DNA from: Aggregicoccus sp. 17bor-14
GTDB lineage: Bacteria > Myxococcota > Myxococcia > Myxococcales > Myxococcaceae
Assembly: GCF_009659535.1 (NCBI RefSeq)
Contig: NZ_VJZZ01000005.1
Coordinates: 248,001-312,000 of the forward strand
Length of the DNA: 64,000 bases
Direction: 5' to 3'
Positions 5,732 to 34,423 of the stretch are shown piece after piece. The notes under the pieces are model-generated. The model did not search any database. It saw only the letters and a list, made by a program, of their open reading frames with translations, and had not been told where the DNA came from. Numbering within the stretch: the stretch's first letter is position 1; each line of letters begins with the position of its first letter. Position numbers and translations under genes: made by a program.

Positions 5732-6742
5732 ATGCTCGAAGAGCCCCAGGACCTGCGCGCGCCCACACACGCGCCCACGCTCGCGCCCCTCCCCGCGCCG
5801 GGCACCGCGCCGCACCCGGACCTGGTGTGGATCCCGGGCGGCACCTTCCTCATGGGCTCCGAGGCGCACTACCCGGAGGAGGCGCCGGTGCACCCGGTGG
5901 GCGTGAGCGGCTTCTGGATGGACCGCTTCACGGTGACGAACATGCAGTTCCAGCGCTTCGTGGAGGCGACGAAGTACCTCACGGTCGCCGAGCGCCCGCT
6001 GAACCCGGAGGACTACCCCGGCGCGAAGCCCGGGGCGCTCGTCCCCGGCTCGCTCGTGTTCCGCAAGGCGCCGCACCCGGTGAGCCTCGCGAACTGGCAG
6101 CGCTGGTGGGACTACGTGCCGGGCGCGAGCTGGCGCCACCCCGAGGGGCCGCAGTCGAACCTCAAGGGGCGCGGAAAGCACCCGGTGGTGCACGTGGCCT
6201 ACGAGGACGTGGAGGCCTACGCCGCGTGGGCGGGAAAGCAGGTGCCCACCGAGGCCGAGTGGGAGTGCGCCGCGCGCGGGGGGCTCGAGGGCGCGGAGTT
6301 CTGCTGGGGCAGTGAGCTGCGGCCCGCAGGCCGCCCCATGGCGAACATCTGGGAGGGCGAGTTCCCCTGGCAGAACCTGAAGGAGGACGGCTACGAGGGC
6401 ACGGCTCCGGTGGGCAGCTACCCGCCCAACGGCTACGGCCTCCACGACATGGCGGGCAACGTGTGGGAGTGGACCCAGGACTTCTACGCCGAGCGCCACG
6501 CAGGGCCCGCGACGAAGGCCTGCTGCATCCCGCAGAACCCGCGCAACGCCGCGCGCGAGGCGAGCCGCGACCCGGCCCAGCCGCACATCCACATCCCGCG
6601 CCGCGTGCTCAAGGGCGGCAGCCACCTGTGCGCCTTCAACTACTGCCGCCGCTACCGCCCCGCCGCGCGCAGCCCGCAGCAGGTGGACTCGGGCGCCTGC
6701 CACATCGGCTTCCGGCTCGTGCTGCGGCCCGAGGCGCACTGA
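5732..6742 (+). CDS. Formylglycine-generating enzyme (sulfatase-modifying factor)
   Basis: A 336-residue FGE-sulfatase protein. The N-terminal IPGGTFLMGS (35-43), the VTNMQFQRF block, PTEAEWECAARGG and the core MAGNVWEWTQD are all family signatures. The two copper-binding active-site cysteines are both kept (C300 and C305 in GGSHLCAFNYCRRYRPAAR). The protein should therefore be a true aerobic FGE, converting the Cys of a CxAxR motif in sulfatases to formylglycine, rather than one of the many inactive relatives. I set the start at the ATG at 5732, where the conserved frame begins. Its convergent neighbour is an arylsulfatase with exactly the required motif. No signal peptide is visible, so it probably acts in the cytoplasm. 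Confidence 0.9.
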   Translation: MLEEPQDLRAPTHAPTLAPLPAPGTAPHPDLVWIPGGTFLMGSEAHYPEEAPVHPVGVSGFWMDRFTVTNMQFQRFVEATKYLTVAERPLNPEDYPGAKPGALVPGSLVFRKAPHPVSLANWQRWWDYVPGASWRHPEGPQSNLKGRGKHPVVHVAYEDVEAYAAWAGKQVPTEAEWECAARGGLEGAEFCWGSELRPAGRPMANIWEGEFPWQNLKEDGYEGTAPVGSYPPNGYGLHDMAGNVWEWTQDFYAERHAGPATKACCIPQNPRNAAREASRDPAQPHIHIPRRVLKGGSHLCAFNYCRRYRPAARSPQQVDSGACHIGFRLVLRPEAH

Positions 6743-6746
6743 AGGG

Positions 6747-6780
6747 CCGCGGCCCCCGGGTGCGCCCCGGGGGACCGCGG
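6747..6780. terminator. GC-rich hairpin between convergent FGE and sulfatase genes
   Basis: CCGCGGCCCCCGGG (6747-6760) pairs with CCCGGGGGaCCGCGG (6766-6780) apart from one bulged A, with a five-base loop. It occupies nearly all of the 43-nt gap between two convergent stop codons, so it probably ends transcription in both directions. No strong T-run follows. Confidence 0.6.
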
Positions 6781-6785
6781 GCTCC

Positions 6786-8333
6786 TCAGGCGCGCGCGGT
6801 GGGCTGGGGCTTCTTGTTTCCGCCGGTCACGGCGGGGTGCGGCTGCGCGGCCATCGCGTCCTGCTTCTCGCGCGCCTTGTCCAGTGCCTGGTCGATGCTG
6901 AAGCTCGCAGGCTTCTGGCGCGGCGGGAACTCCTCGAAGGTCTTGAGGAACTCACCCACGATTTGCTGGGCCGGCACCAGCACGAAGGCGTGGTCCACCA
7001 TCCACTTGTCGTAGAACATCGAGGCATCCTCGTCCCCGCGCTCGAAGGGGTCGCTGCGCAGGTTGTAGACCTTGGGCGCGCGCAGCGAGACCGTGGGGTC
7101 GCGCCAGACGCTCAGGCCGTGGGAGCGCTGCTCCATGAAGGTCACCTTCCACTGCTGCACGCGCAGCGCGAACAGGTCCCCGTCGTCGCTCCAGTAGAGG
7201 AAGCCCTTGCGCGGGTTGTCCTCCTCGCCCGTCAGGTGCGGCAGCAGGTTGAAGCCGTCGATGTGGACCCTGAAGGTCTTCTTGCCGGCCTTGTGCCCCT
7301 TCTTGAGCTTCTCCACGATGTCCGGCTCGCCGGCCGCCGCGAGCAGCGTGGGCAGCATGTCCGTGTGCGAGAAGATCTCGTTGGAGACCGTCCCCGCGTC
7401 GATCTTCCCCGGCCAGCGGATGGCGCAGGGCACGCGCCAGCCCCCTTCGAAGTTCGTGTCCTTCTCGCCGCGGAACGGAGTCGTGCCGCCGTCCGGCCAG
7501 CTCATGACCTCGGCCCCGTTGTCGGTCGAGTACATCACGATCGTGTCATTGGCGAGCCCCAGCTCGTCCAGCTTGTCGAGCAGGCGCCCCACGTGCCCGT
7601 CGTGCTCCACCATGCCATCGGGGTAGACGCCCAGGCCCGTCTTGCCCTCGGACTCCTTCTTGAGGTGCGTGAACATGTGCATGCGGGTGGAGTTGAACCA
7701 GAGGAAGAAGGGCTTGCCCTCCTTCTTCGCCTTGTCCATGAAGCCCAGCGCGCCCTCGACGAACTCCTCGTCCACCGTCTCCATGCGCTTCAGGTTGAGC
7801 GGCCCGGTGTCCTCGATGCGCTGAGTGCCATCCGCGTTGGCCCAGCAGTGCAGCACGCCGCGCGGGCCGAACTTCTTCCGGAACTCCGGGTCCTTGGGGT
7901 AGTCCGGGTGCTCCGGCTCCTGCTCGGCGTTGAGGTGGTAGAGGTTGCCGAAGAACTCGTCGAAGCCGTGCAGTGTGGGCAGGAACTCGTCGCGGTCGCC
8001 GAGGTGGTTCTTGCCGAACTGGCCAGTCATGTACCCGAGCGGCTTGAGCAGGTCCGCGATGGTGGGATCCTCCGGCTGCAGCCCGAGCGTGGCCCCCGGC
8101 AGGCCCACCTTGGTCAGCCCCGTGCGGATGGGGGACTGGCCGGTGATGAAGGCAGCCCTGCCCGCAGTGCAGCTCTGCTGGCCATACCAGTCGGTGAAGA
8201 GGCAACCCTCCTTCGCGACGCGGTCGATGTTGGGCGTGCGGTAGCCCATCACGCCCAGGTTGTAGGCGCTGACGTTGTACCAGCCGATGTCGTCGCCCCA
8301 GATGATGAGGATGTTGGGTTGTTTCGTTGCCAT
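6786..8333 (-). CDS. Arylsulfatase (formylglycine-dependent)
   Basis: A 515-residue alkaline-phosphatase-fold sulfatase. The start MATKQPNILIIWGDDIGW gives the first metal-binding aspartates, and QQSCTAGRAAF carries the C-x-A-x-R modification motif with Cys55, the residue that FGE turns into formylglycine. Later come FFLWFNSTRMHMFTH, the TDNGAE metal site and TPFRGEKDTNFEGGWRVP. Length and motif order fit a complete type I sulfatase. No Sec or Tat signal is visible, whereas many sulfatases are exported, so it may hydrolyse sulfate esters inside the cell. The convergent FGE is the probable activator. The gap to the next gene upstream (236 nt) should hold its promoter. Confidence 0.9.
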   Translation of the reverse strand: MATKQPNILIIWGDDIGWYNVSAYNLGVMGYRTPNIDRVAKEGCLFTDWYGQQSCTAGRAAFITGQSPIRTGLTKVGLPGATLGLQPEDPTIADLLKPLGYMTGQFGKNHLGDRDEFLPTLHGFDEFFGNLYHLNAEQEPEHPDYPKDPEFRKKFGPRGVLHCWANADGTQRIEDTGPLNLKRMETVDEEFVEGALGFMDKAKKEGKPFFLWFNSTRMHMFTHLKKESEGKTGLGVYPDGMVEHDGHVGRLLDKLDELGLANDTIVMYSTDNGAEVMSWPDGGTTPFRGEKDTNFEGGWRVPCAIRWPGKIDAGTVSNEIFSHTDMLPTLLAAAGEPDIVEKLKKGHKAGKKTFRVHIDGFNLLPHLTGEEDNPRKGFLYWSDDGDLFALRVQQWKVTFMEQRSHGLSVWRDPTVSLRAPKVYNLRSDPFERGDEDASMFYDKWMVDHAFVLVPAQQIVGEFLKTFEEFPPRQKPASFSIDQALDKAREKQDAMAAQPHPAVTGGNKKPQPTARA

Positions 8334-9039: not shown

Positions 9040-9837
9040 CTACGGCCCCTTGCGCTCGAAGGAGAACTGGCGCTTGTCCCAGCGCTGGGGCGTGAGCAGC
9101 AGCACGCCCCCTTCCACCTCGCAGCGCAGGCGGGTGACGTTGCGGCCGCTCCAGTCGGGGAGCGCCACGTCGCGCGGCTCCCCGCAGAGCACCCCCTCGA
9201 GCGAGCCTCCCAGCGCCCGCGCCTCCCACTCGTCCTTGTCCAGCATCACCACCTGGCCCCAGATGCGCATCGTGAGCGCGTTGCCCGAGCCCAGCGTGGG
9301 GCCGCCCAGGCGCGTCTCCATCTCGAAGCAGCCGGGCGCCGCGATGCGCATGAGCAGCCCGTAGTCGGAGCGGATGGACTGGTCATCCGTGCCCTTGCTC
9401 TGGCGCACGAAGCCCGCGCCCGTCAGCTCCCACTGCCCCGTCCACTCCTCCGGCAGCGCGAAGGCCGCCCCGGGCTGGGGTGCGCACTGCCCGGGCGCCT
9501 CCGCCCCCGGCGCCCCCTTCACCGAGGCGAACACCCGGCCACACGCCTCGGGGCAGGCCTTGCGCCAGCAGGCGGTGTCGCTCGCCGCGCACTGCGCCTT
9601 GCGCAGGCAGCTGCGCAGCCCCTTCATGGCGCCCGCGCAGGGCGCCATGCAGCGCTCGAGGCACTTGCCCTCGATGCAGCCGGCGATGCAGCTCCACGTC
9701 TCCAGCGGGCAGGCGCGCGGAGGCGGGGGCGGCTTTGCGGGCGCCTGGGCGAGCGCGCGGGGCAGCAGCGCGAGCAGCAGCGCCAGCGCAGCGGGGAGCA
9801 GGGGCCCGTGTGCCCTCCGCGCTGGCATGGCGCTCAC
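9040..9837 (-). CDS. Cysteine-rich secreted protein
   Basis: A 265-residue exported protein with a clear signal peptide (LLPAALALLLALLPRALA). It begins at the GTG at 9837, which overlaps the previous gene's stop (GTGA). Residues about 43-115 contain twelve cysteines in patterns such as CIAGCIEGKCLERC and CMAPCAG, a disulfide-stabilised domain seen in several myxobacterial secreted proteins. The second half (from EEWTGQWELTGAGFVRQ) reads as a beta-rich, calycin-like or lipocalin-like domain. Function is unknown. Coupling to the following lipoprotein gene upstream suggests a shared envelope role. Confidence 0.65.
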   Translation of the reverse strand: MSAMPARRAHGPLLPAALALLLALLPRALAQAPAKPPPPPRACPLETWSCIAGCIEGKCLERCMAPCAGAMKGLRSCLRKAQCAASDTACWRKACPEACGRVFASVKGAPGAEAPGQCAPQPGAAFALPEEWTGQWELTGAGFVRQSKGTDDQSIRSDYGLLMRIAAPGCFEMETRLGGPTLGSGNALTMRIWGQVVMLDKDEWEARALGGSLEGVLCGEPRDVALPDWSGRNVTRLRCEVEGGVLLLTPQRWDKRQFSFERKGP

Positions 9838-10469
9838 TCCATCGCGCGCTCGAGCATCAGCCCGAGGATGGTGGCCTGCTGCGCCGGCGCGAGGCGCTCG
9901 AAGCCGCTGGGCAGGGTCACCTTCACGTCCGTGGAGGGCTTGCCCTCGCAGTCACGCTCGCCCTTGTAGTCCGTGCCGAGCCCGCTGCCGCCCGTGCCGG
10001 CGCTGTTGTAGGCGTTGCTGCGGTTGCTGCGCTTCAGGTCATATCGGCAGGTGGCCACGTTGCCCGAGAGCGTGTTGGGCGAGAACGAGAACGAGGACTC
10101 CCGCCCGCGGTAGAGCCCATCCGCGCGCAGGCCGCCCTTCGTGGGCTGCAGCTGCAGCCGGATGGGCTCCTCCCCTACCTTGCCCTGCACCGTGCCCTGC
10201 GCGAGCGCGAGGTCCACGGGCGCGCCGTAGGCCTCGCCCTTCGCGGTGCCGCCCTGCACCTCCACGTTCACCTGGGGCCCCTTGAGCGTGTTGCCCTCGA
10301 GCGCCACGTAGCGGGTCTTCCCATAGGCCTCCACCATCACGTTGCCCGTGGCCTCACTCAGGCCCGTGCTCGCGACCGCCGCCCCGGTGCTGCCCTTCGA
10401 CGAAGAGGAGGACGAGGCACAGCCACAGACTGCGAGCAGCGCTGCCGTCATCCACGCCTGGCGCTTCAT
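9834..10469 (-). CDS. Lipoprotein with Ser-rich tether, hypothetical
   Basis: A 211-residue lipoprotein (MKRQAWMTAALLAVCGC; lipobox VCGC, Cys17) with a run of six serines as a tether. The body is rich in short strands (VMVEAYGKTRYVALEGNT, VNVEVQGGTAKGEAYG, VDLALAQGTVQGKVG) that could form a repetitive beta structure. It holds two cysteines (TCRYDL and GERDCEGK) that could pair. GGAAGGAG precedes the ATG well. It is followed by the Cys-rich secreted protein with a four-base overlap. No family was recognised. Confidence 0.65.
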   Translation of the reverse strand: MKRQAWMTAALLAVCGCASSSSSSKGSTGAAVASTGLSEATGNVMVEAYGKTRYVALEGNTLKGPQVNVEVQGGTAKGEAYGAPVDLALAQGTVQGKVGEEPIRLQLQPTKGGLRADGLYRGRESSFSFSPNTLSGNVATCRYDLKRSNRSNAYNSAGTGGSGLGTDYKGERDCEGKPSTDVKVTLPSGFERLAPAQQATILGLMLERAME

Positions 10470-17204: not shown

Positions 17205-17744
17205 ATGAAGCGCCTCATCGAGAAGCACCCGGAGCGCGTGGTGGACTACCTCGCCGAGCGCCTCGCCTTCGAGCGCGGCGGCGTGCGGCTGTACGAAGCG
17301 CTGCTGGAGCACGTGGAGGAGGCGCCGGAGCCCGAGGTGCGCGCGCTCGCCACGCTGCTGCGGCGCCAGCGCGACGAGGAGCGCGAGCACGTGACGTGGC
17401 TGCAGGCGCAGCTCGAGGCGCTGGGCGCGGGCAGCCACCCGCACAGCGCGCGCGCCGAGCTCTCGCGCGAGGAGACGCGCGGGCTCGCCCACGTCATCCT
17501 CGAGGGGCACGCGCCCCTGCCCCACCTGCTGCACGCGCTGCTCGCCGCGGAGCTGGTGGACCACGCGGGGTGGGACCTCCTGGTGGCGCTCGCGGACGAG
17601 GCCCACGACATGGAAGCCCAGCGCGCGCTGCGCCAGCGCCGCGACGAGGAGGCGCGCCACCTCGCGCTCTGCCGCGAGCTCGCCGAGCGCTTCGCGGTGC
17701 AGCAGGTGCTCGACGAGCCGCTGCGCCTGCCCGTCACGCCCTGA
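17205..17744 (+). CDS. Ferritin-like di-iron domain protein
   Basis: A 179-residue all-helical protein with the four-helix di-iron ligand pattern: Glu in AFERGGVRLYEALLEH, E-x-x-H in DEEREHVTWL, Glu in HALLAAELVDHAGWDLL and E-x-x-H in DEEARHLALC. Spacing between the two halves fits the ferritin-like superfamily (rubrerythrin / DUF892 side). A role in iron or peroxide handling is likely but not proven. It begins 58 nt after the DUF5335 gene and probably shares its message. Confidence 0.75.
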   Translation: MKRLIEKHPERVVDYLAERLAFERGGVRLYEALLEHVEEAPEPEVRALATLLRRQRDEEREHVTWLQAQLEALGAGSHPHSARAELSREETRGLAHVILEGHAPLPHLLHALLAAELVDHAGWDLLVALADEAHDMEAQRALRQRRDEEARHLALCRELAERFAVQQVLDEPLRLPVTP

Positions 17745-17860: not shown

Positions 17861-18670
17861 TCAGCCGGGCCGCGGCGGCTCGAGCTCCACGGTGGGAGCG
17901 CTCGTCACCGCGGGTGAGGCCGAGGGCTCCGCGGGACGCAGCGGGTCCTCCGGTGCCTCGGGGCGCACCACGGCGCGGTTCGGCCCCGGCCCCGGCCCCA
18001 CCTGCACGCGCGCCGCGGTCTCGGGCGCCACGGCGGCCGCCGCCTGCGCGACGCTGGCTCCCGGCGTGCGCGGCTCGAGCAGGCGCGCCGAGCCCGTGTA
18101 GCTCACGGCCCGCGCCGGCACGCCCACCACCACTGCCTGGGGCGGCACGTTCGCCACCACGAGCGAGTTGGCGCCGATGACCGCGCCCTCGCCCACCTTC
18201 ACCGGGCCGGTGATGGTGGCGCTGGGGCCCACCCACACCCGGTCCGCGAGCTCGGGGCCGCGCTCCCCCTCGCCCGCGCAGCCGATGGTGACCGCGTGGT
18301 TCACGTTGCAGTGCGCGCCGATGCGCGCGTGGGGCGAGACCCAGATGCCGCCCCAGTGCCCGATGTAGAGGCCCGGCCCCACCTGCGTCTGCGGGTAGAG
18401 GTGGATGCCCAGGCCCCAGGACACCGCGCGGTGCGCGAGCGCAAAGGGCAGCTTGCACAGCAGGCGCACCGGCCGGCTCGCCTCCTCGTGCAGGTACTGC
18501 CCGAAGCGGAAGGTGGCCAGCGCCCACAGGGGCTCGGTGCGCAGCAGCACGCCGAGCCGCTGCAGCCGGGTGCCCGGCGCGCGCGCGCCGAGGTAGCGGC
18601 TGAGGTCCGCGTGAAAGCGCGCGCGGGCCGAGAGGCGGGGCGTGGGTGACGAGGGAGCCTCAGGCCTCAC
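17861..18670 (-). CDS. Serine acetyltransferase-like hexapeptide acyltransferase
   Basis: A 269-residue protein of the CysE/left-handed beta-helix group. A short helical N-terminal part (FHADLSRYLG) leads into hexapeptide repeats at about 90-190 (GIHLYPQTQVGPGLYIGHWGG, IGAHCNVNHAVTIG, VKVGEGAVIGANSLV). The active-site histidine is likely that of NHAVTIG. The final 70 residues are Pro/Ala-rich and disordered. It overlaps the carrier-protein gene by 11 nt and is the last gene of the operon. In cysteine synthesis such enzymes use acetyl-CoA. Here a carrier-bound acyl group is a plausible donor, as in LpxA. The GTG start is the only candidate near the operon junction. Confidence 0.7.
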   Translation of the reverse strand: MRPEAPSSPTPRLSARARFHADLSRYLGARAPGTRLQRLGVLLRTEPLWALATFRFGQYLHEEASRPVRLLCKLPFALAHRAVSWGLGIHLYPQTQVGPGLYIGHWGGIWVSPHARIGAHCNVNHAVTIGCAGEGERGPELADRVWVGPSATITGPVKVGEGAVIGANSLVVANVPPQAVVVGVPARAVSYTGSARLLEPRTPGASVAQAAAAVAPETAARVQVGPGPGPNRAVVRPEAPEDPLRPAEPSASPAVTSAPTVELEPPRPG

Positions 18671-18920
18671 CGGGCACCCCGCGCATCGCCCGGATGGCCT
18701 GTGCGATGCCCTCCACCGTGTCGAAGGACTGCGGCTCCCCGAAGGCGAGCAGGCTCACCCCGTACTGCTGCTCCACGTAGTCCAGCAGCTGCAAGAGCCC
18801 CAGCGAGTCCACCCGTCCCGACGACAGCAGCGGCTCCTGCGCCTGCACCAGCTGGTTGCGTCCCCGCTCCAGCACCAGCTCGCTGGAGATGTAGCGCTGC
18901 AAGTCACTCTCGATGCTCAT
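18660..18920 (-). CDS. Stand-alone acyl/peptidyl carrier protein
   Basis: An 86-residue carrier protein. The phosphopantetheine attachment site is S39 in SGRVDSLGLLQLLDYVEQQY, close to the usual (D/H)SL consensus. Length, acidity and helix spacing fit a free-standing PCP/ACP. Its ATG overlaps the adenylation gene's stop (ATGA), which implies that the enzyme and its carrier are made together. It should receive the aminoacyl group from the neighbouring adenylation enzyme and present it to the flavin dehydrogenase. Confidence 0.85.
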   Translation of the reverse strand: MSIESDLQRYISSELVLERGRNQLVQAQEPLLSSGRVDSLGLLQLLDYVEQQYGVSLLAFGEPQSFDTVEGIAQAIRAMRGVPGEA

Positions 18921-20518
18921 GCCCCTGCCCCCGTTTCCCACGCCTTCTTCAACGCCGTGCGGTCCGCCTTGCTCGTGGAGGTGCGCGGCAGCTCTCCGTG
19001 TACCGCGATGCGCTCGGGCACCATGTACGCGGGCAGCCGCTCCGCGCAGAAGGCGCGCAGGGCCTGCGGCTCCACCTGGCCTCCGGTGCGCAGGAGCACC
19101 GAGGCCACGATGCGGTTGCCCAGCTGCGGGTCCGGCAGCGGCACCGCCACCGCCTCGAGCACCTCGGGGTGCGCGGCGAGCGCGGCCTCGATCTCCCCCA
19201 GCTCCACGCGGAAGCCGCGCGTCTTCACCTGGTGGTCGCGCCGGCCGTGGAAGCGGAAGGCCCCGTCCGGCTCGCGCCGCACCCGGTCCCCCGTGCAGTA
19301 GGCGAGGCCGGGCACCCCGCGCGGGTCCGGCTGCAGCGTGGCGTGCGTGCGCGCGGGGTCCGCCCAGTAGCCCTGCATCAGGTGCGGCCCGCGCACCCAC
19401 AGGGTGCCCTCGCGGTCGTCGCGGATCTCCCGCCCCTCGTCGTCCAGCACGAAGCTCTCGAGCCCCGTGCAGGTGTGGCCAATGGGGATGGGCGCATCCC
19501 CGGGCGGCAGCTCCTCGGGCACCTGGTACGCGGTGCACACGTTGGTCTCCGTGGGACCGAAGAGGTTCCACAGCTGGGCGTGGGGCACTGCGCGCCGCAG
19601 CCTGCGCAGCTGCGGCGTGGGGAACACCTCGCCCGCGAAGAGCAGGACGCGCACGCTGGGCAGCCCTCCCTGCTCGAGCCCGCCTGCCTCCATCATCTGG
19701 GTGAGCACGCTGGGCACCGAGTACCAGACGGTGATGCCCAGCTGCCGCACCGTGCGCACCAGGTGCGGCGGCAGCATCGCCTCCACCGAGCTGAAGAGGC
19801 GCACGCTCGCGCCCGAGCCCAGCGCGGCGAAGAGGTCCGAGATGGAGAGGTCGAAGTGCAGCGGCGCGTGGCTGCTGAACACGTCCTGCGGGCCGGTCCG
19901 GAACGTGCGCTGCACCCAGCGCGTGAAGGCGATGCCCGAGCCGTGCGTGTGCACCACGCCCTTGGGCGTGCCGGTGCTGCCCGAGGTGTAGAGCAGGTAG
20001 GCCACCTGCTCGGGGCGAAGCTCGGGCAGCGCCGCGGGCGGGTGCTGCGCGGCCGCCTGCAGCGGCAGCAGCGGGGGCAGGAAGGGGTTCTCGCGCGCGA
20101 GCGCGAGCTGGCTGGGCTCGGCGCCGTCCACCAGCACGATGCGGGGGCTGAGCCCCTCGAGCAGCGTGGGCAGGTGCTGCAGGTGAGGCACGTCCACCAC
20201 CAGCGCCGCGAGCTCGCAGTTGCGCGCGATGGCGGCGCAGCGCGCGGGCGGCGAGCGCGGGTCCAGGGGCACGTAGGCGCAGCCCGCGGCGAGCGCGCCC
20301 AGGAGCGCCTGCACCGCGCCCGGCCCCTTCTCCAGGCACAGCCCCACGCGCGCGCCCGGCGGCACGCCCGCCTCGCGCAGGGTGGCCGCGATGCCGCGCG
20401 CTCCGTCCAGCAGCGCGCCGTAGCTCAGGGAGCCCGTGGCGGTGAGCAGCGCGGGCTTGCTGCGGGGAACGCGCGCGGCGCCCTCGCACACCAGGTCGAA
20501 GAGAGAGCCTCGTTTCAT
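18917..20518 (-). CDS. Stand-alone amino-acid adenylation enzyme (probable L-prolyl-carrier ligase)
   Basis: A 533-residue adenylate-forming enzyme with the full core set: LLYTSGSTGTPKG (175-187), FGPTETNVC (320-328), the hinge YCTGDRVRREPDG, and A10 Lys at 517 (TSTSKADR). Aligning by eye to the GrsA pocket gives D223, L224, S227, Y266, L293, A295, L319, V327 and C328. This nine-letter code, DLSYLALVC, differs at one place from DLLYLALVC, which I recall for the proline-loading enzyme PltF. Flanking dehydrogenase and carrier genes fit the same pathway. D-alanine ligase (DltA) is an alternative, since FDLS is shared, but the pocket Cys of DltA is Ala here and no dltB or dltD is present. Confidence 0.8.
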   Translation of the reverse strand: MKRGSLFDLVCEGAARVPRSKPALLTATGSLSYGALLDGARGIAATLREAGVPPGARVGLCLEKGPGAVQALLGALAAGCAYVPLDPRSPPARCAAIARNCELAALVVDVPHLQHLPTLLEGLSPRIVLVDGAEPSQLALARENPFLPPLLPLQAAAQHPPAALPELRPEQVAYLLYTSGSTGTPKGVVHTHGSGIAFTRWVQRTFRTGPQDVFSSHAPLHFDLSISDLFAALGSGASVRLFSSVEAMLPPHLVRTVRQLGITVWYSVPSVLTQMMEAGGLEQGGLPSVRVLLFAGEVFPTPQLRRLRRAVPHAQLWNLFGPTETNVCTAYQVPEELPPGDAPIPIGHTCTGLESFVLDDEGREIRDDREGTLWVRGPHLMQGYWADPARTHATLQPDPRGVPGLAYCTGDRVRREPDGAFRFHGRRDHQVKTRGFRVELGEIEAALAAHPEVLEAVAVPLPDPQLGNRIVASVLLRTGGQVEPQALRAFCAERLPAYMVPERIAVHGELPRTSTSKADRTALKKAWETGAGA

Positions 20519-21663
20519 GACAACCCCATCAGGCGAGCGATGATCTTGCGCTGCATCTCCGAGGTACCCGAGTAGAGGGTCCCCGGCACGGCGTCGCGCA
20601 GCTCCCGCTCCACCCCGTACTCGGTGGTGAAGCCGTAGCCGCCGTGGAGCTGGATGGCCGCGAGCGCCTGGCGCACGTGCGCTTCGGACACGAAGAGCTT
20701 GGCCATGGCCGCTTCCAGGATGGCGTCCTTGCCGGCGTCGCGTGCGGCCGCGGCGCGGTAGAGCAGGAGCCGCCCCGCCTCGAGCGCCACCTTCATGTCC
20801 ACCAGCTTGTCGGCGATCTCCGGGTGGCGCGAGATGGGCTGTCCGAACTGCTCGCGCCCCTTCGCGTACGCCACGCAGTCGTCGAGCAGCCGCTCCATCG
20901 CGCCCAGGTGCGCGGCGAAGATGCAGGTGCGCTCCCAGGCCATCGCCGCGTTGAAGATGCTGCCGCCCGCGCCCTCCGGGCCCAGCCGCGCGCTCACCGG
21001 CACCCGGCAGCCCTCGAGCACCACCTCGCCCATGGGCGAGGTGCGGATGCCCATCTTGGGGATGGGGCGGCTCAGCGTGAGCCCGGGCGTCTCGCGGTCC
21101 ACGAGGAAGCCGGTGACCCCGAGGCTCTTGAGCGCCGGGTTCACCGTGGCGAACACCAGCAGCACGTCCGCGACGGGGCCGTTGGTGATGAAGGTCTTGG
21201 TGCCGTCGAGGACATAGCAGTCGCCCTCGCGCCGGGCGCGCGTGCGCATGCCCATGGCGTCCGAGCCGTGTGAGGGCTCGGTGACGGCATGCGCCCCGAT
21301 GCGCTCTCCGCTCGCGAGCGGCGGCAGGTAGCGCTGCCGCTGCGCCTCGGTGCCGAACTTGAGCACTGGCAGCTGGAAGGCCCACATCTGGGCGTTGAGG
21401 GAGAAGACGAGCCCGTTGTCGCGGCAGCCGTGGCCCAGCGCCATCATCGCGAGCAGCGTGGTCATCAGGTCCGCGCCGCTGCCGCCGTACTCGCGCGGCA
21501 GCGGGAGGCCCGGGATGCCGAACTCGGCGCAGCGCCGCCAGGCCTCGCGGTCGAAGCGCCCCTCGGCATCGCGCTGCGCGAGCCCCTCGTTGAGGGTGCG
21601 CCCGAACTGGCGCACCGACTCGCACAGCGCGCGCTGCTCCTCGTTCGGCTCGAAGAAATTCAC
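20515..21663 (-). CDS. Acyl-CoA dehydrogenase-family flavoenzyme (possible prolyl-carrier dehydrogenase)
   Basis: A 382-residue flavoprotein of normal ACAD length. FAD-binding motifs are AHAVTEPSHGSDAMG and KTFITNGPVADVLLV, and the end is GTLYSGTSEMQRKIIARLMGL. The common catalytic Glu of medium-chain enzymes (YEGTs) is replaced (Y364-S365-G366). A Glu sits instead at E244 (MAWERTCIFA), the isovaleryl-CoA dehydrogenase position. That arrangement is also expected for carrier-protein prolyl dehydrogenases (PltE/RedW type). The GTG at 21663 follows GGAGGGGGG and gives the canonical N-terminus. Its stop overlaps the adenylation gene start (ATGA). It is the first gene of the operon. Confidence 0.8.
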   Translation of the reverse strand: MNFFEPNEEQRALCESVRQFGRTLNEGLAQRDAEGRFDREAWRRCAEFGIPGLPLPREYGGSGADLMTTLLAMMALGHGCRDNGLVFSLNAQMWAFQLPVLKFGTEAQRQRYLPPLASGERIGAHAVTEPSHGSDAMGMRTRARREGDCYVLDGTKTFITNGPVADVLLVFATVNPALKSLGVTGFLVDRETPGLTLSRPIPKMGIRTSPMGEVVLEGCRVPVSARLGPEGAGGSIFNAAMAWERTCIFAAHLGAMERLLDDCVAYAKGREQFGQPISRHPEIADKLVDMKVALEAGRLLLYRAAAARDAGKDAILEAAMAKLFVSEAHVRQALAAIQLHGGYGFTTEYGVERELRDAVPGTLYSGTSEMQRKIIARLMGLS

Positions 21664-21812: not shown

Positions 21813-22028
21813 TCAGGTGCTGCTGCGGTTCGCGCCGCCGTGGCCCGACGCGCCCGAGTCCCCCGAGGGCGACGCGTCGCTGGAGTGCACCGAGCGGCCC
21901 TCGCGGCTCGCCGCGTTGCCGTCCGGGTCCGACTCCAGCTCCGAGCGGCCGAAGATCTCCTTGCGCGCCTCCTCCGAGAGCTTCGAGTTGCCGGCTCCCG
22001 GCGCCTCCTGGTTGCGCTTGTAGGGCAT
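21813..22028 (-). CDS. Small hydrophilic disordered protein
   Basis: A 71-residue protein starting MPYKRNQEAPGAGNSKLSEE, with a strong AGGAGG Shine-Dalgarno eight bases before the ATG. It has no hydrophobic segment and is rich in Ser, Gly, Asp and Glu, with an SSDASPSGDSGASGHGG-like tail. The start resembles small stress-linked hydrophilic proteins (KGG type), which stay disordered. Function is unknown. It is divergent from a Usp gene, across a 323-nt gap. Confidence 0.6.
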   Translation of the reverse strand: MPYKRNQEAPGAGNSKLSEEARKEIFGRSELESDPDGNAASREGRSVHSSDASPSGDSGASGHGGANRSST

Positions 22029-27954: not shown

Positions 27955-28638
27955 ATGAAGAACAATCTGATTGCCGCGGTTCTGGTGTTTGGCTTTGCTT
28001 CCAGCGCGATGGCGGCCCCCGCCTCCTCGGACACCGGCAAGGTGACCATCAACGCGCACGTCTCGAGCAGCGTGTCGCTGAGCTTCGACAGCATGACCTC
28101 GGGCGTCACCGGCGGCCCCGCCAACGGCAAGCTGGACCACACGATCGACTTCAAGGACGTGGCGGCGACCACCGCGGCCACCTCGCTGAAGACCGAGGAC
28201 GTCGTGATGCGCCTGCGCTCCAACACCCCCTACGTCCTGCAGGCCGTCGCCTCGGTCACCAGCGATGGCGGCGCGAGCGGCGCCAATGCGCTCGGCCTCG
28301 ACGACATCGGCTTCGGCATCACCGACGTCGGCAACACCAGCGCCAACCTGGTGGACACCACGACGGACCACACCACGGACGCGACCACCTACAAGTACGA
28401 TCCGTCCAGTGCTGACGTCTCCACGGGCGAGGTGGCCTTCACCCACACCCTGCAGGACCTGCAGGCGGCGGCGGTCGACGTCGCGCAGGGTGGCCGCATC
28501 TCCAAGGGCGGCAACGTGAAGTCCGACAACAACTACATCACGGTCACCACCCGGTACTCGATCCTGCCCCAGTTCTTCGAGCCGACGACGAGCGACTTCG
28601 TCGCCGTGGTGAACTTCACCCTCGCCTCCAACCCGTAG
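27955..28638 (+). CDS. Exported pilin-like subunit, paralogue 1
   Basis: A 227-residue exported protein (signal MKNNLIAAVLVFGFASSAMAA). It shares with three neighbours an N-terminal strand (KVTINAHVSSSVSLSF), a central LDDIGFGI motif and a C-terminal pair (ILPQFFEPTTSDFVAVVNFTL). The protein is beta-rich and nearly cysteine-free, so it differs from disulfide-bearing spore-coat-U subunits though the layout is similar. It is the first gene of a four-gene operon that ends with a chaperone-like gene. Likely role: a secreted structural subunit. The start could also be the ATG at 27928, but the signal peptide begins at 27955. Confidence 0.75.
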   Translation: MKNNLIAAVLVFGFASSAMAAPASSDTGKVTINAHVSSSVSLSFDSMTSGVTGGPANGKLDHTIDFKDVAATTAATSLKTEDVVMRLRSNTPYVLQAVASVTSDGGASGANALGLDDIGFGITDVGNTSANLVDTTTDHTTDATTYKYDPSSADVSTGEVAFTHTLQDLQAAAVDVAQGGRISKGGNVKSDNNYITVTTRYSILPQFFEPTTSDFVAVVNFTLASNP

Positions 28639-28665
28639 TCGCAGTCCCCTCTCCCGGAACTCCCC

Positions 28666-29367
28666 ATGCCCAGGCTCTTCAGGCAGTACATCGCAGTCCT
28701 TCTGAGCAGCCTGGCGCTGGGGCTCCCGGGCCTCGCCGCGGCACAGTCGCAGGCCACTGACTCCGGCAGCGTGACACTCAACGCCCGCGTCTCGGGCTAC
28801 GTGGACATCGCTGCCGGCGGGCCTGCGAGCGTCACCACGGGCGGCACCGTCTCCGTCGTCAAGAACAAGGGCGACGTGCTCACGGGCATGACCATCGACT
28901 TCGGCGACGTCTCGCCGGTCAACACGAACCCGATGGTCAAGGCCACCGTGCCGCTGCGGCTGCGCTCGAACGTCGCGTACACGCTGTCGGTGAGCACCAC
29001 GGGCTTCAGCAACGTGGACCCGCTGGCCATCCAGCCCACGGACGTCGGCTTCGGCGTGGACAACGTGCGGCGCACGGACTCGGGCGTGAATGCCGGCACG
29101 GACACCATCGTCGCCGCCGTCAAGGGCGACCCCTCGTTGGACCCGGACGCGAACACCGGCACGCCCCGCTGGGACTTCGTGACCGCCAAGTCGCTGTCCA
29201 ACTACACGACCTCGAAGGCCGTGATGACCGGCCCGCGCATCATGCAGGTGGTGCCGGCCGCGAACGTGGGCGGCCTGTTGGTGGACACCTACTTCGCGAT
29301 CAAGCCACAATTCTTCACGCCTGGCTCCTTCACCACCACCGTCACGTACACCATCACCACGCCCTGA
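28666..29367 (+). CDS. Exported pilin-like subunit, paralogue 2
   Basis: A 233-residue exported protein, paralogous to its neighbours: VTLNARVSGYVDI near the mature start, PTDVGFGVDNV in the middle and FAIKPQFFTPGSFTTTVTYTI at the end. A signal peptide (RLFRQYIAVLLSSLALGLPGLAAAQ) precedes it. The region between the first strand and the DVGFG motif includes TIDFGDVSPVNTNPMVKATVP, which is also recognisable in paralogue 3. It begins 27 nt after paralogue 1, so both lie on one message. Confidence 0.75.
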   Translation: MPRLFRQYIAVLLSSLALGLPGLAAAQSQATDSGSVTLNARVSGYVDIAAGGPASVTTGGTVSVVKNKGDVLTGMTIDFGDVSPVNTNPMVKATVPLRLRSNVAYTLSVSTTGFSNVDPLAIQPTDVGFGVDNVRRTDSGVNAGTDTIVAAVKGDPSLDPDANTGTPRWDFVTAKSLSNYTTSKAVMTGPRIMQVVPAANVGGLLVDTYFAIKPQFFTPGSFTTTVTYTITTP

Positions 29368-29383
29368 GCGGGCGGAGTCCCGT

Positions 29384-30079
29384 ATGGCAGCGCCCTCCCG
29401 CAGCTCCCGGACTGGCGCGCTCGCATGCGGCGTGTTCCTGGTGCTCTGCGCGGCCGGGGCTTTGGCTGCGCCCTCGAGGGACTACGACATCGGCAGCGCG
29501 GGCCAGCCCACCATCACGGGCAGCCTCGGCGGGCGGGTCGTGGTCGGCGATCCCAGCCTCCTTGCGGACCTGAGCGTCACGGTGGACCTGGGTGAGCTCT
29601 CCCCGGTCAACCGCAACAGCATCATCAAGGTCGTGGTCCCCATCGCCATCCGCAGCGACGCCGCGTACCAGCTCGAAGTCGATGTGTCTTCGGGAGGTAC
29701 CGGCACCACCCTGGACTCGCCGCAGCTGAGCGACGTGGGCTTCGGCATCCAGAACCTGCAGCAGATGGGGCGCGCCAAGAAGTGCGCGCTCGCCAGCCAC
29801 CGCATCATGGCGCCCTTCGCCAATGATCCTGCGTTCACGGTGAGCTCGGGTGCTGGGCGGGCCAGCTTCCCCTCCTCGCTTGCCACCGTGGGCACCACCG
29901 CGGTCATCATGCAGGGGCCGCAGCTGAGCACGGGCAACATCAACCCCCGCACCACGGACAACGGCTGGCGCTTCGACGCCGTCTTCGCCCTCGTCCCCCA
30001 GTTCTTCGCTCCGGGCACCTCCACGGTGACCCTCACCTTCCGCATCTCGGCGTCGGGCACCAACTGGCCCTGCCTCTGA
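29384..30079 (+). CDS. Exported pilin-like subunit, paralogue 3
   Basis: A 231-residue exported protein (signal about 1-29). It keeps VDLGELSPVNRNSIIKVVVPIAI, SDVGFGIQNL and ALVPQFFAPGTSTVTLTFRI, and it is most like paralogue 2. It has the odd cysteine CAL and a C-terminal WPC, not shared by the others, so it may be a tip or adaptor subunit. It starts 16 nt after paralogue 2. Confidence 0.7.
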   Translation: MAAPSRSSRTGALACGVFLVLCAAGALAAPSRDYDIGSAGQPTITGSLGGRVVVGDPSLLADLSVTVDLGELSPVNRNSIIKVVVPIAIRSDAAYQLEVDVSSGGTGTTLDSPQLSDVGFGIQNLQQMGRAKKCALASHRIMAPFANDPAFTVSSGAGRASFPSSLATVGTTAVIMQGPQLSTGNINPRTTDNGWRFDAVFALVPQFFAPGTSTVTLTFRISASGTNWPCL

Positions 30080-30095
30080 GCCGCAGCTTCCCTTC

Positions 30096-30968
30096 ATGAC
30101 CCGCCCCGCCCTCTCGCTCCTCGCCCTCCTGTTCACTGTCCCCGCGCTCGCCCAGGCGCCGGCCCCCGCCCCTGCGGAGACCGCGGCGCCCCGCCCCAAC
30201 GAGCTCGCCCTCGCGCCCTCGCGCTTCGAGCTGCCCATCGCCCCGGGCGACGAGCAGACGGTGGTGGTGAACGTCATCTCGTCGGGCAGCGGCACCACGC
30301 CCCTGCGCCTGCGCGCGTCGCTCGGCGACTGGGCGCTCAGCGCCACGGGAGACATGAGCTTCGACAAGCCGGGCACCACGCCGCGCTCCGCGACGCCCTG
30401 GATGCTCTACAGCCCCGCGGAGCTCTCGGTGGCCCCCGGCCAGACGCACCCGGTGCGCGTGACCATCTCGGTGCCCAAGGACGCGGCGCCCGGCGACTAC
30501 ACCGCGGTGCTCTTCGTGGAGGAGCGCCCCGCGGACTTGAAGCAGCGCACCAACACCAAGCAGCTGATGTTCCACTTCCGGCTCGCCGCCATCTTCTACG
30601 TGATGGTGCCGCCCTTCACGCTGAAGGGCAGCCTCACGGGGCTGCGCGCCGAGGCCACCGCGCGCGGGCTCGAGGTCACCCCCTCTCTCAAGAACGAGGG
30701 CAACACCCACCTGCGTCCCGTGCAGTCCTTCCAGGTCGTGGACGGCAGCGGCAAGGTGGTGCTCGAGCAGGAGCCCACGGAGGCCTTCCCGGTGCTCGCG
30801 GGCACCACCACCTCCCAGGCGCTGCGCTCGCAGCTGCCCGCCCCTGGCGAGTACTCGCTGCGCTACCGCGTGGACTTCAAGGACGGCGGCAAGGTGGTGG
30901 AGGGCCGCACCAAGCTGGTGGTGCCGGCAGCCGCCCCTCCGGCGCCCGCGAAGAAGACGAAGCGCTGA
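30096..30968 (+). CDS. PapD-like periplasmic chaperone
   Basis: A 290-residue exported protein with an early strand LALAPSRFELPIAPGDEQTVVVNV, then repeated sandwiches (VRVTISVPKDAAPGDYTAVLFVEERP, LRYRVDFKDGGKVVEGRTKL). The layout (N-terminal proline-rich mature end, two Ig-like domains, basic C-tail) fits a periplasmic pilus-assembly chaperone, possibly of the alternate (CfaA/CooB-like) type. It follows three subunit genes by 16 nt and converges on the usher-like gene, with only nine bases between stops. Direct homology to a named chaperone is inference. Confidence 0.6.
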   Translation: MTRPALSLLALLFTVPALAQAPAPAPAETAAPRPNELALAPSRFELPIAPGDEQTVVVNVISSGSGTTPLRLRASLGDWALSATGDMSFDKPGTTPRSATPWMLYSPAELSVAPGQTHPVRVTISVPKDAAPGDYTAVLFVEERPADLKQRTNTKQLMFHFRLAAIFYVMVPPFTLKGSLTGLRAEATARGLEVTPSLKNEGNTHLRPVQSFQVVDGSGKVVLEQEPTEAFPVLAGTTTSQALRSQLPAPGEYSLRYRVDFKDGGKVVEGRTKLVVPAAAPPAPAKKTKR

Positions 30969-30977
30969 GCGGCGCCG

Positions 30978-33557
30978 TCAGAACTCCTTCACCTCGACCT
31001 CGACCGGCTTCGCGCGCACCGGCAGCAGCACTCCGCCCGTCTCCTGCGCGGGAACGATGGAGACCTGGAGCGCGCCAGCGGCCGCTTCCATTCCCTCGGG
31101 CAGGGTCTTCTGGTCGATGAGCACGGTGTGCTGCCCCTGCGGCAGATCGCCGAGCACGAAGTCGCCGTCCGGGCCGGTGAGGGTGTCACGGTTTCCGGCC
31201 ACCACGCGCACCTCACCAAGCGGCTGCTCGCCCTCGTCGACCTGGCCGTTGCCGTTCGCATCTAGCCAGACCAGCCCGGCGGCGCGCCCTGTGCGGATGA
31301 GGCGGAAGTCGACCACCGCGTCGCGGTCCGCGCGCAGCTGCACCTTCTGGTCTGCGCCGCTCAGCAGCGAGAGGTCCGCGCGCACGGTGAGCAGGTTGAG
31401 GTAGACCTTGTGCTCGCCCGCCAGCACGTTGCCGAGCCGGTAGACCCCGTTCTCGTCGGTGCGCGCCGTGTTGTACCCGTCCACGAGCACCTCGACGTTC
31501 CTGAGCGCCCGGTCCACGAGCGGGTCGAAGCGCCCGTCCAGGTTCACGTCCTGGTACACGCGTCCGGAGAAGCCTCCCACGCTGCTCAGCGTCTCCAGGC
31601 TGCGCTGCGCGGCGCTGCGTGCCGCGGGCGCCTCGAAGAGGGGCCCGGAGAGCTCCAGGAAGGCCTGCCCCGAGCGCTGGCTCTGGCTGTAGGTGAGCTG
31701 CAGGCGCTGGTTGCCGGGCAGGAGGGCCGAGAGCCCCACCCGCGCGAAGCTGGTGTACTCGCCGCGCTGGCGGCTGTAGCCCACGCCCGTCGTCACCCCC
31801 ACCCGGTCGGTGAAGAAGTTCGAGGTGAGCCAGTCCAGGCCGCCGCTCATCGAAGCGCCCGTCGAGAAGGTCTGGTACGCGCGAACGCTCGCGGTGGTGA
31901 AGGCGCGGGTGGCCCCCAGCGTGACGCTGCTCGAGGCGGGAGTGCCCGCGGTGCGCGTGCGCGAGAGGTTCGAGAACAGCTCGGTGCGCCCGAAGGTCTG
32001 GGAGACGTTCACGAGCGTGAACTCGCGCGTGCCCGTCTCGGCCTGGCGCCCGGTGCTGTGGCTCACCAGCAGCGAGGGCCACGAGGGCGAGCGGAAGAAG
32101 GTGAGCGTGCCGGTGACGTCGTGGTCGGTGCTCCCGCTCGGCAGGTCCAGCCGCTCCGCGTAGCGGCCGCTCGTCGAGAGCGAGACCCACCGGTGCACGC
32201 GCCAGCTCACGCCTCCGGAGTACTGGTTCAGCGGGCGCAGGAAGCCCGCCAGCTGGGGGCTGAGCACGTTCTCACCGATGTGACTGAAGCCCGCGTTGAG
32301 CGTGAGGGACTCCACCGGCGTGAGCGTCTCGGAGGCGTCCAGCATCAGCCCGGTGCCGCGCACGTCGCGGCCGTCCAGCTGCTGGCCCTGGAAGGAGCCC
32401 ATTCCGAGGTCGAAGCGGAACTGGTGCAGGTTGGTGCCGTACTGCACGCCGCTGGTGAGCACGCTGCCCTGGCGCTGGGGACCCCCGAAGTAGAGGCCGC
32501 CGAAAGAGCTGCTCAGCCGTCGACCCTCCGGTGACGGAGCGCGGCCCAACGTGAAGTAGCCGCCGACCACCGAGGTGTCGAAGTGCTGGGCCAGCGAGGG
32601 CGGCACCTCCGGCGGCAGCGCAGGCCGCGCATCCGAGCGAGTACGCCCGGCAAAGGTGGTGAGCTCCAGCGCTCCCAGCGGCTGACGCCACCATCCACCG
32701 CGCATCGCGGAGGTGAGGAAGGCGAGGTCTCCGCCCGTGCTCAGGTCACCGAACATCAAACGCTGCCCACCCGGGCGCTCGTAGGAGAGCAGCCCGGACC
32801 GGAACTCGAAGAGGCGACCTCCGGTGTCCGTGCCCGCGAAGTTGCTGTTGAGGTCCAGCCGCCCGTCGGCCGCGCGGCCCGATGCGGCCGCGTTGAGGCT
32901 GTGCGTGTACGAGCTGCCGCTGGAGCTGGCCGTGTAGCCGTACTTCGCCGAGTACAGCTCGGCGGGCCCGCGCCGCGAGCCCTCGCGCACCACCAATTGC
33001 GGAAGTCCGCGGTCCACGCGCACGGTGCCCTGCACGTCGTCCACGACCAGCTGCGCGTCGAGCAGCGCGCTGACCAGCTCGGTGGGGAGCATGAGGCCCG
33101 TGGGGTCCGCGGGGAACACCACCTCCGCCACGTTGCCCGCTACGAGCGTGGGGACGCCGTTCTCACTCACCTGCCCCGTCGCCGCGTTGAGCTGGGCGCG
33201 CACGCCCGTGGCGCGCAGCACCTCCACGGTGCGCGTGCTCGCGTCCACGCGCACGGTGTCACCCAACGCGCGCGCGACCACCACCACCGGCAGGAACAGC
33301 CGCCCGCCGCGCAGCTCCGCAGCGCTGTACGCCCCCGTGAGCAGCCGCCCGTCCACGGTGAGGGTGGTGGGCGTCCTCGCCCCGGCCGCCTCTTCGGGCG
33401 CAGCCGTCTGCGCGCGCGCGAGTGGCGCGGCGAGCAGGGCGGCGGCGAGGCTGAGGGTGGCTCGAGTGCGGATGGGAGTGACCCCGGTGAGGCGGAGGCT
33501 CGCTCCGATTCGCCCTGGCGGAAGGGGGGTGCCAGGACGGTGGAAGTTTACGGGCAT
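30978..33557 (-). CDS. Usher-like outer-membrane barrel with SdrD-like C-terminal domains
   Basis: An exported protein of about 859 residues. The N-terminal region (about 60-180) resembles a copper-amine-oxidase N-terminal-like domain (LLTGAYSAAELRGGRLFLPV, TRTVEVLRATGVRA). The middle (about 200-650) is a long series of barrel strands (RPGGQRLMFGDLSTGGD, FFTDRVGVTTGVGYSRQRG, RLQLTYSQSQRSGQAF). The end has two sandwich domains with Ca-binding-like motifs, VYQDVNLDGRFDPLVD and WLDANGNGQVDEGEQP, as in SdrD and CooC_C usher ends. Only one start, the ATG at 33557, gives a signal peptide (ATLSLAAALLAAPLARAQ), with a long n-region. It lies between chaperone and subunit genes. Confidence 0.6.
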   Translation of the reverse strand: MPVNFHRPGTPLPPGRIGASLRLTGVTPIRTRATLSLAAALLAAPLARAQTAAPEEAAGARTPTTLTVDGRLLTGAYSAAELRGGRLFLPVVVVARALGDTVRVDASTRTVEVLRATGVRAQLNAATGQVSENGVPTLVAGNVAEVVFPADPTGLMLPTELVSALLDAQLVVDDVQGTVRVDRGLPQLVVREGSRRGPAELYSAKYGYTASSSGSSYTHSLNAAASGRAADGRLDLNSNFAGTDTGGRLFEFRSGLLSYERPGGQRLMFGDLSTGGDLAFLTSAMRGGWWRQPLGALELTTFAGRTRSDARPALPPEVPPSLAQHFDTSVVGGYFTLGRAPSPEGRRLSSSFGGLYFGGPQRQGSVLTSGVQYGTNLHQFRFDLGMGSFQGQQLDGRDVRGTGLMLDASETLTPVESLTLNAGFSHIGENVLSPQLAGFLRPLNQYSGGVSWRVHRWVSLSTSGRYAERLDLPSGSTDHDVTGTLTFFRSPSWPSLLVSHSTGRQAETGTREFTLVNVSQTFGRTELFSNLSRTRTAGTPASSSVTLGATRAFTTASVRAYQTFSTGASMSGGLDWLTSNFFTDRVGVTTGVGYSRQRGEYTSFARVGLSALLPGNQRLQLTYSQSQRSGQAFLELSGPLFEAPAARSAAQRSLETLSSVGGFSGRVYQDVNLDGRFDPLVDRALRNVEVLVDGYNTARTDENGVYRLGNVLAGEHKVYLNLLTVRADLSLLSGADQKVQLRADRDAVVDFRLIRTGRAAGLVWLDANGNGQVDEGEQPLGEVRVVAGNRDTLTGPDGDFVLGDLPQGQHTVLIDQKTLPEGMEAAAGALQVSIVPAQETGGVLLPVRAKPVEVEVKEF

Positions 33558-33754
33558 GGGAGTGGAAGACCAATTCCCAGCCACCCCTTCTCCCCTGCCT
33601 GTTTGTCTGCCCTCCAGGAGAGCCCGGGACACTTCTACGACCCGGGGACAGGCCCGGGCCTGGCACACGAAAGGCCGAGTGTTTTCCAGAGGCTGCAGCG
33701 CGGGCACGGTGGTTGCTCTGCCCACCCCCGCGCACTCCGCTGGAGGTAGCCCCG

Positions 33755-34423
33755 ATGCTCCGCCCGATGACCGCCGCTCTCCTCCTGCTGAGCCTGAGCG
33801 CTGCGGCCCAGGATCGCGGCACGGTGCGCATCGTCGGCCACGTCTCCGAGGTGGCCTCGCTGCGCTTCCAGTCCAGCACCCTCGCAGGCGAGGGCGTCAC
33901 GGGGCAGAACGCGGGCAACTCGCTCAACTACACGCTGAACCTCGGCGACCTGCGCGAGGCCGAGGGCCGTCCCAACGGCGTCCACGGTGGCGTGGTGACG
34001 CTCGCGCTGCGCACCAACACCGCCTACGTGCTCACCGCCACGGTGCAGGGCTCGGGCTTTCGCGCGGGCCCGGGGGAGATCGGCCTCGGGGACATCGGCT
34101 TCGGCGTGCCCAGCGCCGCCATCACCCCTTCGGGAGACCACGCCCGCGCGGACGGCACCCAGGTGGTGAACGCGGCCAAGTTCGACAGCGACCCGCTCAC
34201 GGCCTCCACCGCCGGCGGCCGGCCGCACTACGCGGCGACGCTCGCGGACCTCGCGCACGGCCCCACTCCGCTGCTGCAGGGCGAGCGCATCTCCTACGGC
34301 GGCACCGTGAACGCGCCGAACAACGCGCTGCTCGTCTCCACGAACTACGCGGTGCACCCGCAGATGTTCCGCCGCAACGACCGCTTCGAGGCCACGGTCA
34401 CCTACACGCTGACCACCCCGTAG
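33755..34423 (+). CDS. Exported pilin-like subunit, paralogue 4
   Basis: A 222-residue exported protein (MLRPMTAALLLLSLSAAAQ signal; GGAGG before the ATG). It carries the same hallmarks as the operon subunits: VRIVGHVSEVASLRF, LGDIGFGVPSA and YAVHPQMFRRNDRFEATVTYTL. It lies divergent from the usher-like gene, across a 197-nt gap that must hold both promoters. A separate gene could let it be made at a different level, for example as a base or tip subunit. That is inference. Confidence 0.7.
   Translation: MLRPMTAALLLLSLSAAAQDRGTVRIVGHVSEVASLRFQSSTLAGEGVTGQNAGNSLNYTLNLGDLREAEGRPNGVHGGVVTLALRTNTAYVLTATVQGSGFRAGPGEIGLGDIGFGVPSAAITPSGDHARADGTQVVNAAKFDSDPLTASTAGGRPHYAATLADLAHGPTPLLQGERISYGGTVNAPNNALLVSTNYAVHPQMFRRNDRFEATVTYTLTTP

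Follow-up and report, generated by a model that had tools for sequence, protein, structure and literature searches.

A conserved four-gene operon of Aggregicoccus sp. 17bor-14 that may pass a proline-derived acyl group from a carrier protein to a small acceptor through a CysE-like hexapeptide acyltransferase

The window analyzed here, a 64,000-nucleotide stretch of the Aggregicoccus sp. 17bor-14 genome, carries a compact operon of four genes on its minus strand (17861-21663). In order of transcription, these encode a prolyl-carrier-type enzyme of the acyl-CoA-dehydrogenase fold (20515..21663; 382 aa, GTG start), recognized by its NCBIfam and PDB relatives; a stand-alone adenylation enzyme (18917..20518; 533 aa); a free-standing carrier protein (18660..18920; 86 aa); and a CysE-like hexapeptide acyltransferase (17861..18670; 269 aa), recognized by PF00132 and by orthologues in four other operons. 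As a preliminary description of the locus had stated, and as the coordinates confirm, the genes overlap by 4 bases (20515-20518), 4 bases (18917-18920), and 11 bases (18660-18670). All four were chosen by a gene caller trained on the window DNA, and their third-position GC of 93-96% is that of real genes in this region. The acyltransferase gene is the last of the transcription unit, since the gene beyond its 3' end (17205-17741) lies on the plus strand; a gap of about 150 bases separates the operon from an upstream frame of 71 codons in the same direction (21816-22028). Read by eye, the neighboring genes resemble those for PEP carboxylase, UspA-like, M16-peptidase-like, and OmpA-like proteins, and the called genes near the operon include none for a polyketide synthase (PKS), a nonribosomal peptide synthetase (NRPS), or glycan synthesis.

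Two other regions of the window are recorded for completeness. At 5732-8333, a formylglycine-generating-enzyme-like gene is convergent with a sulfatase-like gene (both read by eye). At 27955-34420, several small secreted proteins share related N-terminal regions in what resembles a fimbria-type surface cluster; among its genes are one that is possibly chaperone-like (30096-30965) and one for a protein of 792 aa (30981-33356), and a search for chaperone/usher matches to this cluster gave none of significance.

The adenylation enzyme is a full A-domain (PF00501 plus PF13193) whose best solved match among stand-alone-type enzymes is PltF (6o6e). Over the specificity region PltF is the top PDB match, with an E value of 7e-52 versus 3e-32 for the next. 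The nine pocket residues, D223, L224, S227, Y266, L293, A295, L319, V327, and C328 (encoded within 19535..19852, minus strand), had been proposed earlier from the letters alone as one position away from the code of PltF. HMMER alignment to 6o6e returned the same residues and a proline-type match, DLSYLALVC against DLLYLALVC, identical at 8/9 positions. Lys517 is invariant in the aligned orthologues. The carrier matches PF00550 weakly (18.8 bits, below the gathering cut-off of 20.8), and its best PDB matches by phmmer, 6cxt_A (the carrier that works with Bmp3), PltL, and PigG, all belong to prolyl systems. In an alignment of five carriers, D38-S39 of the DSL motif is invariant; Ser39 (codon 18804..18806, minus strand) is the predicted phosphopantetheine attachment site.

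For the dehydrogenase, the best NCBIfam models are PigA (432.8 bits) and RedW (418.5 bits). Both scores lie under the respective equivalog cut-offs of 500 and 650 bits, so the protein is not filed as PigA or RedW themselves. Its nearest solved relative is the prolyl-ACP dehydrogenase AnaB (4irn; 405 bits), followed by Bmp3 (6cxt) and 5zw0. The predicted catalytic base, Glu244 (codon 20932..20934, minus strand), occupies the position of the Glu in AnaB, Bmp3, and 5zw0, where chain 6af6 has Ala, and its equivalent is Glu in all four other operon dehydrogenases; the Glu position of medium-chain acyl-CoA dehydrogenase (MCAD) is occupied by Ser365 in the window protein. The Glu at the AnaB/Bmp3 position is described as essential in both of those enzymes (PMC10849742). 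In a maximum-likelihood tree, the five operon dehydrogenases alone form one clade (support 100/98) that is separate from the AnaB group and the Bmp3 group, so the sequence fits a stop at pyrroline or at pyrrole alike, and it is within these two end points that we infer the degree of oxidation. Activity as a prolyl-carrier oxidase with pyrroline or pyrrole as the end point is well supported by these comparisons. The preliminary assignments of a prolyl-carrier dehydrogenase and a carrier protein agree with the family match and retained Glu244 of the one and the DSL serine of the other.

The acyltransferase consists of a core (residues 19-198) and, in the window protein alone, an extra C-terminal tail of about 70 residues that is Pro/Ala-rich, of low complexity, and missing from the orthologues, which are 40-54% identical in the other four operons. 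His105 (codon 18356..18358, minus strand), the predicted catalytic residue, aligns with the His of the serine acetyltransferase (SAT) motif 'DHATG' and is invariant in 19 homologues. In E. coli CysE, D143 is the Asp of the catalytic dyad, and D157 and H193 are serine-binding residues, D157 being the Asp beside the catalytic His and H193 the His of 'DRHPK'. These three positions are H90, G104, and G138 in the window protein and are not restored in its orthologues. With the SAT catalytic His kept and D157, H193, and D143 lost, serine is probably not the acceptor, and the enzyme is likely an O- or N-acyltransferase that lacks a serine site. An AlphaFold model (19 rows) had a mean pLDDT of 63.5, with the N-terminal helices alone confident, and a Foldseek search with this low-confidence model returned no match below E 1e-3; serine acetyltransferase appeared at E ~10.

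A search with the acyltransferase against 195 genomes of the window's phylum returned two strong matches, in Anaeromyxobacter oryzae Red232 and A. oryzisoli SG63. Both genomes have the order dehydrogenase, ligase, carrier, and acyltransferase seen in the window; the carrier of SG63 was missed by the gene caller yet is present in frame. Scanning GTDB contigs with an alignment of the dehydrogenase added Candidatus Krumholzibacteriia MAG46, with all four genes (67/56/40/55% identity) and a holo-ACP synthase gene after them, and a search of 80 genomes of that phylum added one more (G240), in which dehydrogenase and ligase are followed by two carriers and the acyltransferase. The tandem carrier pair of G240 lies at 9549-10167 of locus L117. 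The gene order that the preliminary description had suggested looking for elsewhere is thus found in four further genomes, making five genomes in two phyla with the carrier doubled in one, and the acyltransferase, which it had counted as part of the unit, recurs in its place in each. Flanking genes differ among the five loci, save between the two Anaeromyxobacter, indicating that the four genes stay together as a unit and are not neighbors by chance. Exactly the five operon ligases are joined in the ligase tree (99/99), and the five operon acyltransferases are joined weakly in theirs (71/53). Neither the gene calls nor the sequence of the stretches read revealed a ketosynthase, condensation domain, or halogenase beside any of the five operons. 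Among 96 genomes of the window's own family, the operon acyltransferase occurs only in the window's genome, and an acyltransferase profile found 0 matches in 396 Actinomycetota genomes at E 1e-40, in a search run without a positive control.

Genomic contexts of the wider acyltransferase group bear on both donor and acceptor. The MAG46 operon is set among UDP-GlcNAc 2-epimerase, glycosyltransferase, capsule-synthesis, DUF354, and O-antigen-ligase genes, and more distant homologues are found mostly in apparent polysaccharide loci. A stand-alone carrier is encoded within 6 kb of the acyltransferase in 6 of 21 other loci; acyl-AMP ligases accompany three of these six, and an FkbH-type loading enzyme scoring above its cut-off accompanies two. 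Because there are about three stand-alone carriers in the 6.9-Mb window genome (two by Pfam plus the operon's own), a carrier would be expected this close by chance in well under 1/50 cases; some of these carriers had gone into the profile that detected them, which bears on detection and not on position. Many members from polysaccharide loci have no carrier gene nearby and probably use acetyl-CoA. In two loci (L085, 5795-9143; L086, 8408-11543), an FkbH-domain protein and a carrier stand beside one or two CysE-like acyltransferases, a context that suggests glyceryl-carrier-dependent acylation by this branch. By analogy, the contexts of the relatives point to glycans as possible acceptors.

We propose that the operon encodes a self-contained acylation pathway of loading, oxidation, and direct transfer to a small acceptor, a reading of the sequences to which we assign a probability of about 0.55. 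The adenylation enzyme would activate L-proline or a close analogue and load it on the carrier; the FAD dehydrogenase would then oxidize the prolyl group on the carrier, giving a pyrroline-carboxyl or pyrrole-2-carboxyl thioester; and the CysE-like acyltransferase would move this group directly from the carrier to a small acceptor with a hydroxyl or amino function, most likely a sugar or a sugar nucleotide, with no need for a condensation domain or ketosynthase. The first two steps are proposed because of sequence matches to biochemically known enzymes, and by these matches proline-type loading with oxidation on the carrier is highly probable. For the third, proposed because of the conserved linkage and the contexts of the acyltransferase family, we infer both the direct transfer from the carrier and the identity of the acceptor: action of the acyltransferase on the carrier-bound group seems somewhat favored, and a sugar-type acceptor is a suggestion that we would put below even odds. 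The proposal in its most specific form, a dedicated decoration of a glycan, or of a small compound bearing a hydroxyl or amino group, with a proline-derived pyrrole or pyrroline group that the CysE-like enzyme takes directly from the carrier, is more tentative still. Three observations count against the proposed pathway, namely that glycan genes are missing near the window operon, that monophyly of the five acyltransferases is weak, and that the dehydrogenase scores below the cut-offs.

Since family members without a carrier probably use acetyl-CoA, the operon acyltransferase could acetylate instead. On this alternative, the thioester made by the first three gene products would serve in trans a PKS or NRPS encoded elsewhere in the genome, and the acyltransferase would be an acetyl-CoA-dependent O- or N-acetyltransferase decorating the final product. 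Acetyl-CoA is the normal donor for CysE-like enzymes, NRPS-like genes are present on contig C3 of the window genome, and the well-known dehydrogenase-adenylation (DH-A)-carrier sets all feed PKS/NRPS lines. This extends to the window's family, where other DH-A pairs in the 96 genomes are located in an NRPS cluster that includes a condensation-domain protein and in PKS-linked clusters, which we take to be DKxanthene-like. Against these points, the acyltransferase directly follows the carrier in five operons with different surroundings, and the stretches read around these operons contain no PKS or NRPS gene; we therefore regard use in trans as unlikely, although it is the strongest of the competing accounts. 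The window's family also contains a second conserved DH-A-carrier set (L048-L058), after which come a free condensation-carrier protein and a crotonyl-CoA-reductase-like enzyme; in several genomes the set runs into a large NRPS.

A narrower alternative keeps the pathway and changes its substrate to a substituted or homologous imino acid such as hydroxyproline, methylproline, or pipecolate. The pocket codes of the other four operons are DLSYLALVC, DLSYLAAVC, DLCYFALVC, and DLFYLALVC. At the third code position, which corresponds to GrsA W239, four of the five operons have Ser or Cys; the residue is Leu or Phe in the ligases of PKS- and NRPS-linked sets, a difference that leaves room for a substituted proline. 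The remaining eight positions of the window code are nevertheless those of PltF, and the fifth operon code, DLFYLALVC, is that of other proline-type ligases, making this substrate change improbable. Least credible is a serine O-acetyltransferase or other sulfur-metabolism enzyme placed in the operon by accident: cysE and EpsC are indeed the best curated models for the protein, but it scores below both cut-offs (97.9 bits versus 210.65 and 97.7 versus 150, respectively), does not conserve the serine-binding residues, and keeps its linkage across two phyla.

Ligase-carrier-dehydrogenase sets that lack this acyltransferase also adjoin exopolysaccharide genes, on plasmids of Microvirga and of two roseobacters. 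Plasmid pMVF16-2 of Microvirga sp. VF16 (L128, 2874-9137) has, within an exopolysaccharide cluster, genes for a prolyl-carrier dehydrogenase, a carrier, and a ligase with the proline-type code DLFYLALVC; beside them is a gene for a multispan protein of 876 aa whose C-terminus gives a weak SGNH-type match. By eye this protein seemed MBOAT-like, a resemblance that neither Pfam at 1e-5 nor NCBIfam confirmed. The Microvirga set resembles a further, possibly Dlt-like, route for placing a proline-derived group on a glycan. Plasmids of Roseovarius pelagicus (L133, 15715-19892) and Pseudohalocynthiibacter (L129, 7564-11741) share one carrier-dehydrogenase-methyltransferase-ligase block, with identical protein accessions across the two genera, next to genes for YjbH/YjbF and for polysaccharide export. 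One of the two plasmids has been typed as conjugative. The ligase code in this block, DIFFIGSMC, is not proline-like.

Several characterized systems resemble parts of the proposed pathway. PltF-PltL-PltE, PigI-PigG-PigA, and RedM-RedO-RedW likewise combine a stand-alone prolyl ligase, a free carrier, and an oxidase of the acyl-CoA-dehydrogenase type, but there the pyrrole passes to a halogenase or to a PKS/NRPS ketosynthase, whereas the window operon has a hexapeptide acyltransferase in that place, and the operon dehydrogenases form a separate clade. The anatoxin-type starter set AnaB-AnaC-AnaD includes the closest solved relative of the window dehydrogenase, AnaB; this enzyme carries out a two-electron oxidation that ends at pyrroline, and it supplies a PKS. 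The aminoacyl ligase and carrier of the Dlt system, which decorates teichoic acids with D-alanine, provide the closest logical parallel for glycan decoration; the window operon differs from it in the amino acid, in the added oxidation, and in having a soluble hexapeptide enzyme rather than the MBOAT protein DltB. The acyltransferase itself has hexapeptide repeats and a catalytic His in common with CysE/EpsC and with WcaB- and NeuD-type polysaccharide acetyltransferases and, unlike CysE/EpsC, is without the serine-binding residues, falls below the curated cut-offs, and has a fixed carrier partner.

In overall chemistry the proposed pathway resembles the clorobiocin and coumermycin pathways, where CloN3-CloN4-CloN5 make pyrrole-2-carboxyl on a carrier as in the proposed pathway, and where, in clorobiocin, CloN7 places the group on a sugar hydroxyl after a second carrier (PMC11218499). 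The CloN7 transfer gives the overall chemistry a precedent; its route runs via the second carrier (CloN1, CloN2) within a large antibiotic cluster, whereas the window unit is stand-alone. To our knowledge, CloN7 is not of the hexapeptide type. The open-access literature yielded no description of a hexapeptide acyltransferase paired with a prolyl or pyrrolyl carrier, or of such a unit without further biosynthetic genes. The preliminary claim of an undescribed pathway is accordingly to be narrowed: it stands with respect to that literature, and falls for the transfer of pyrrole-2-carboxyl to a sugar, which is known from clorobiocin with another acyltransferase. The novelty lies in the type of enzyme and in the stand-alone nature of the unit, while the general chemistry and the families of the first three parts are known.

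If the proposed pathway is correct, three enzymes and one carrier would suffice to turn a proteinogenic amino acid into an N-heteroaryl acyl group attached to a small acceptor, which is a very short route. Because the four proteins are small, the claim is open to direct testing in vitro, and the same set would offer a compact kit for in vitro acylation. Carrier-protein chemistry would then reach hexapeptide acyltransferases beyond lipid A synthesis, and the operon enzymes, together with their glyceryl- and acyl-loading relatives, would represent a branch of carrier-dependent hexapeptide acyltransferases in polysaccharide biosynthesis. For the organisms themselves, the operon would suggest that Myxococcota and Krumholzibacteriota make glycans or metabolites with heteroaryl modifications.
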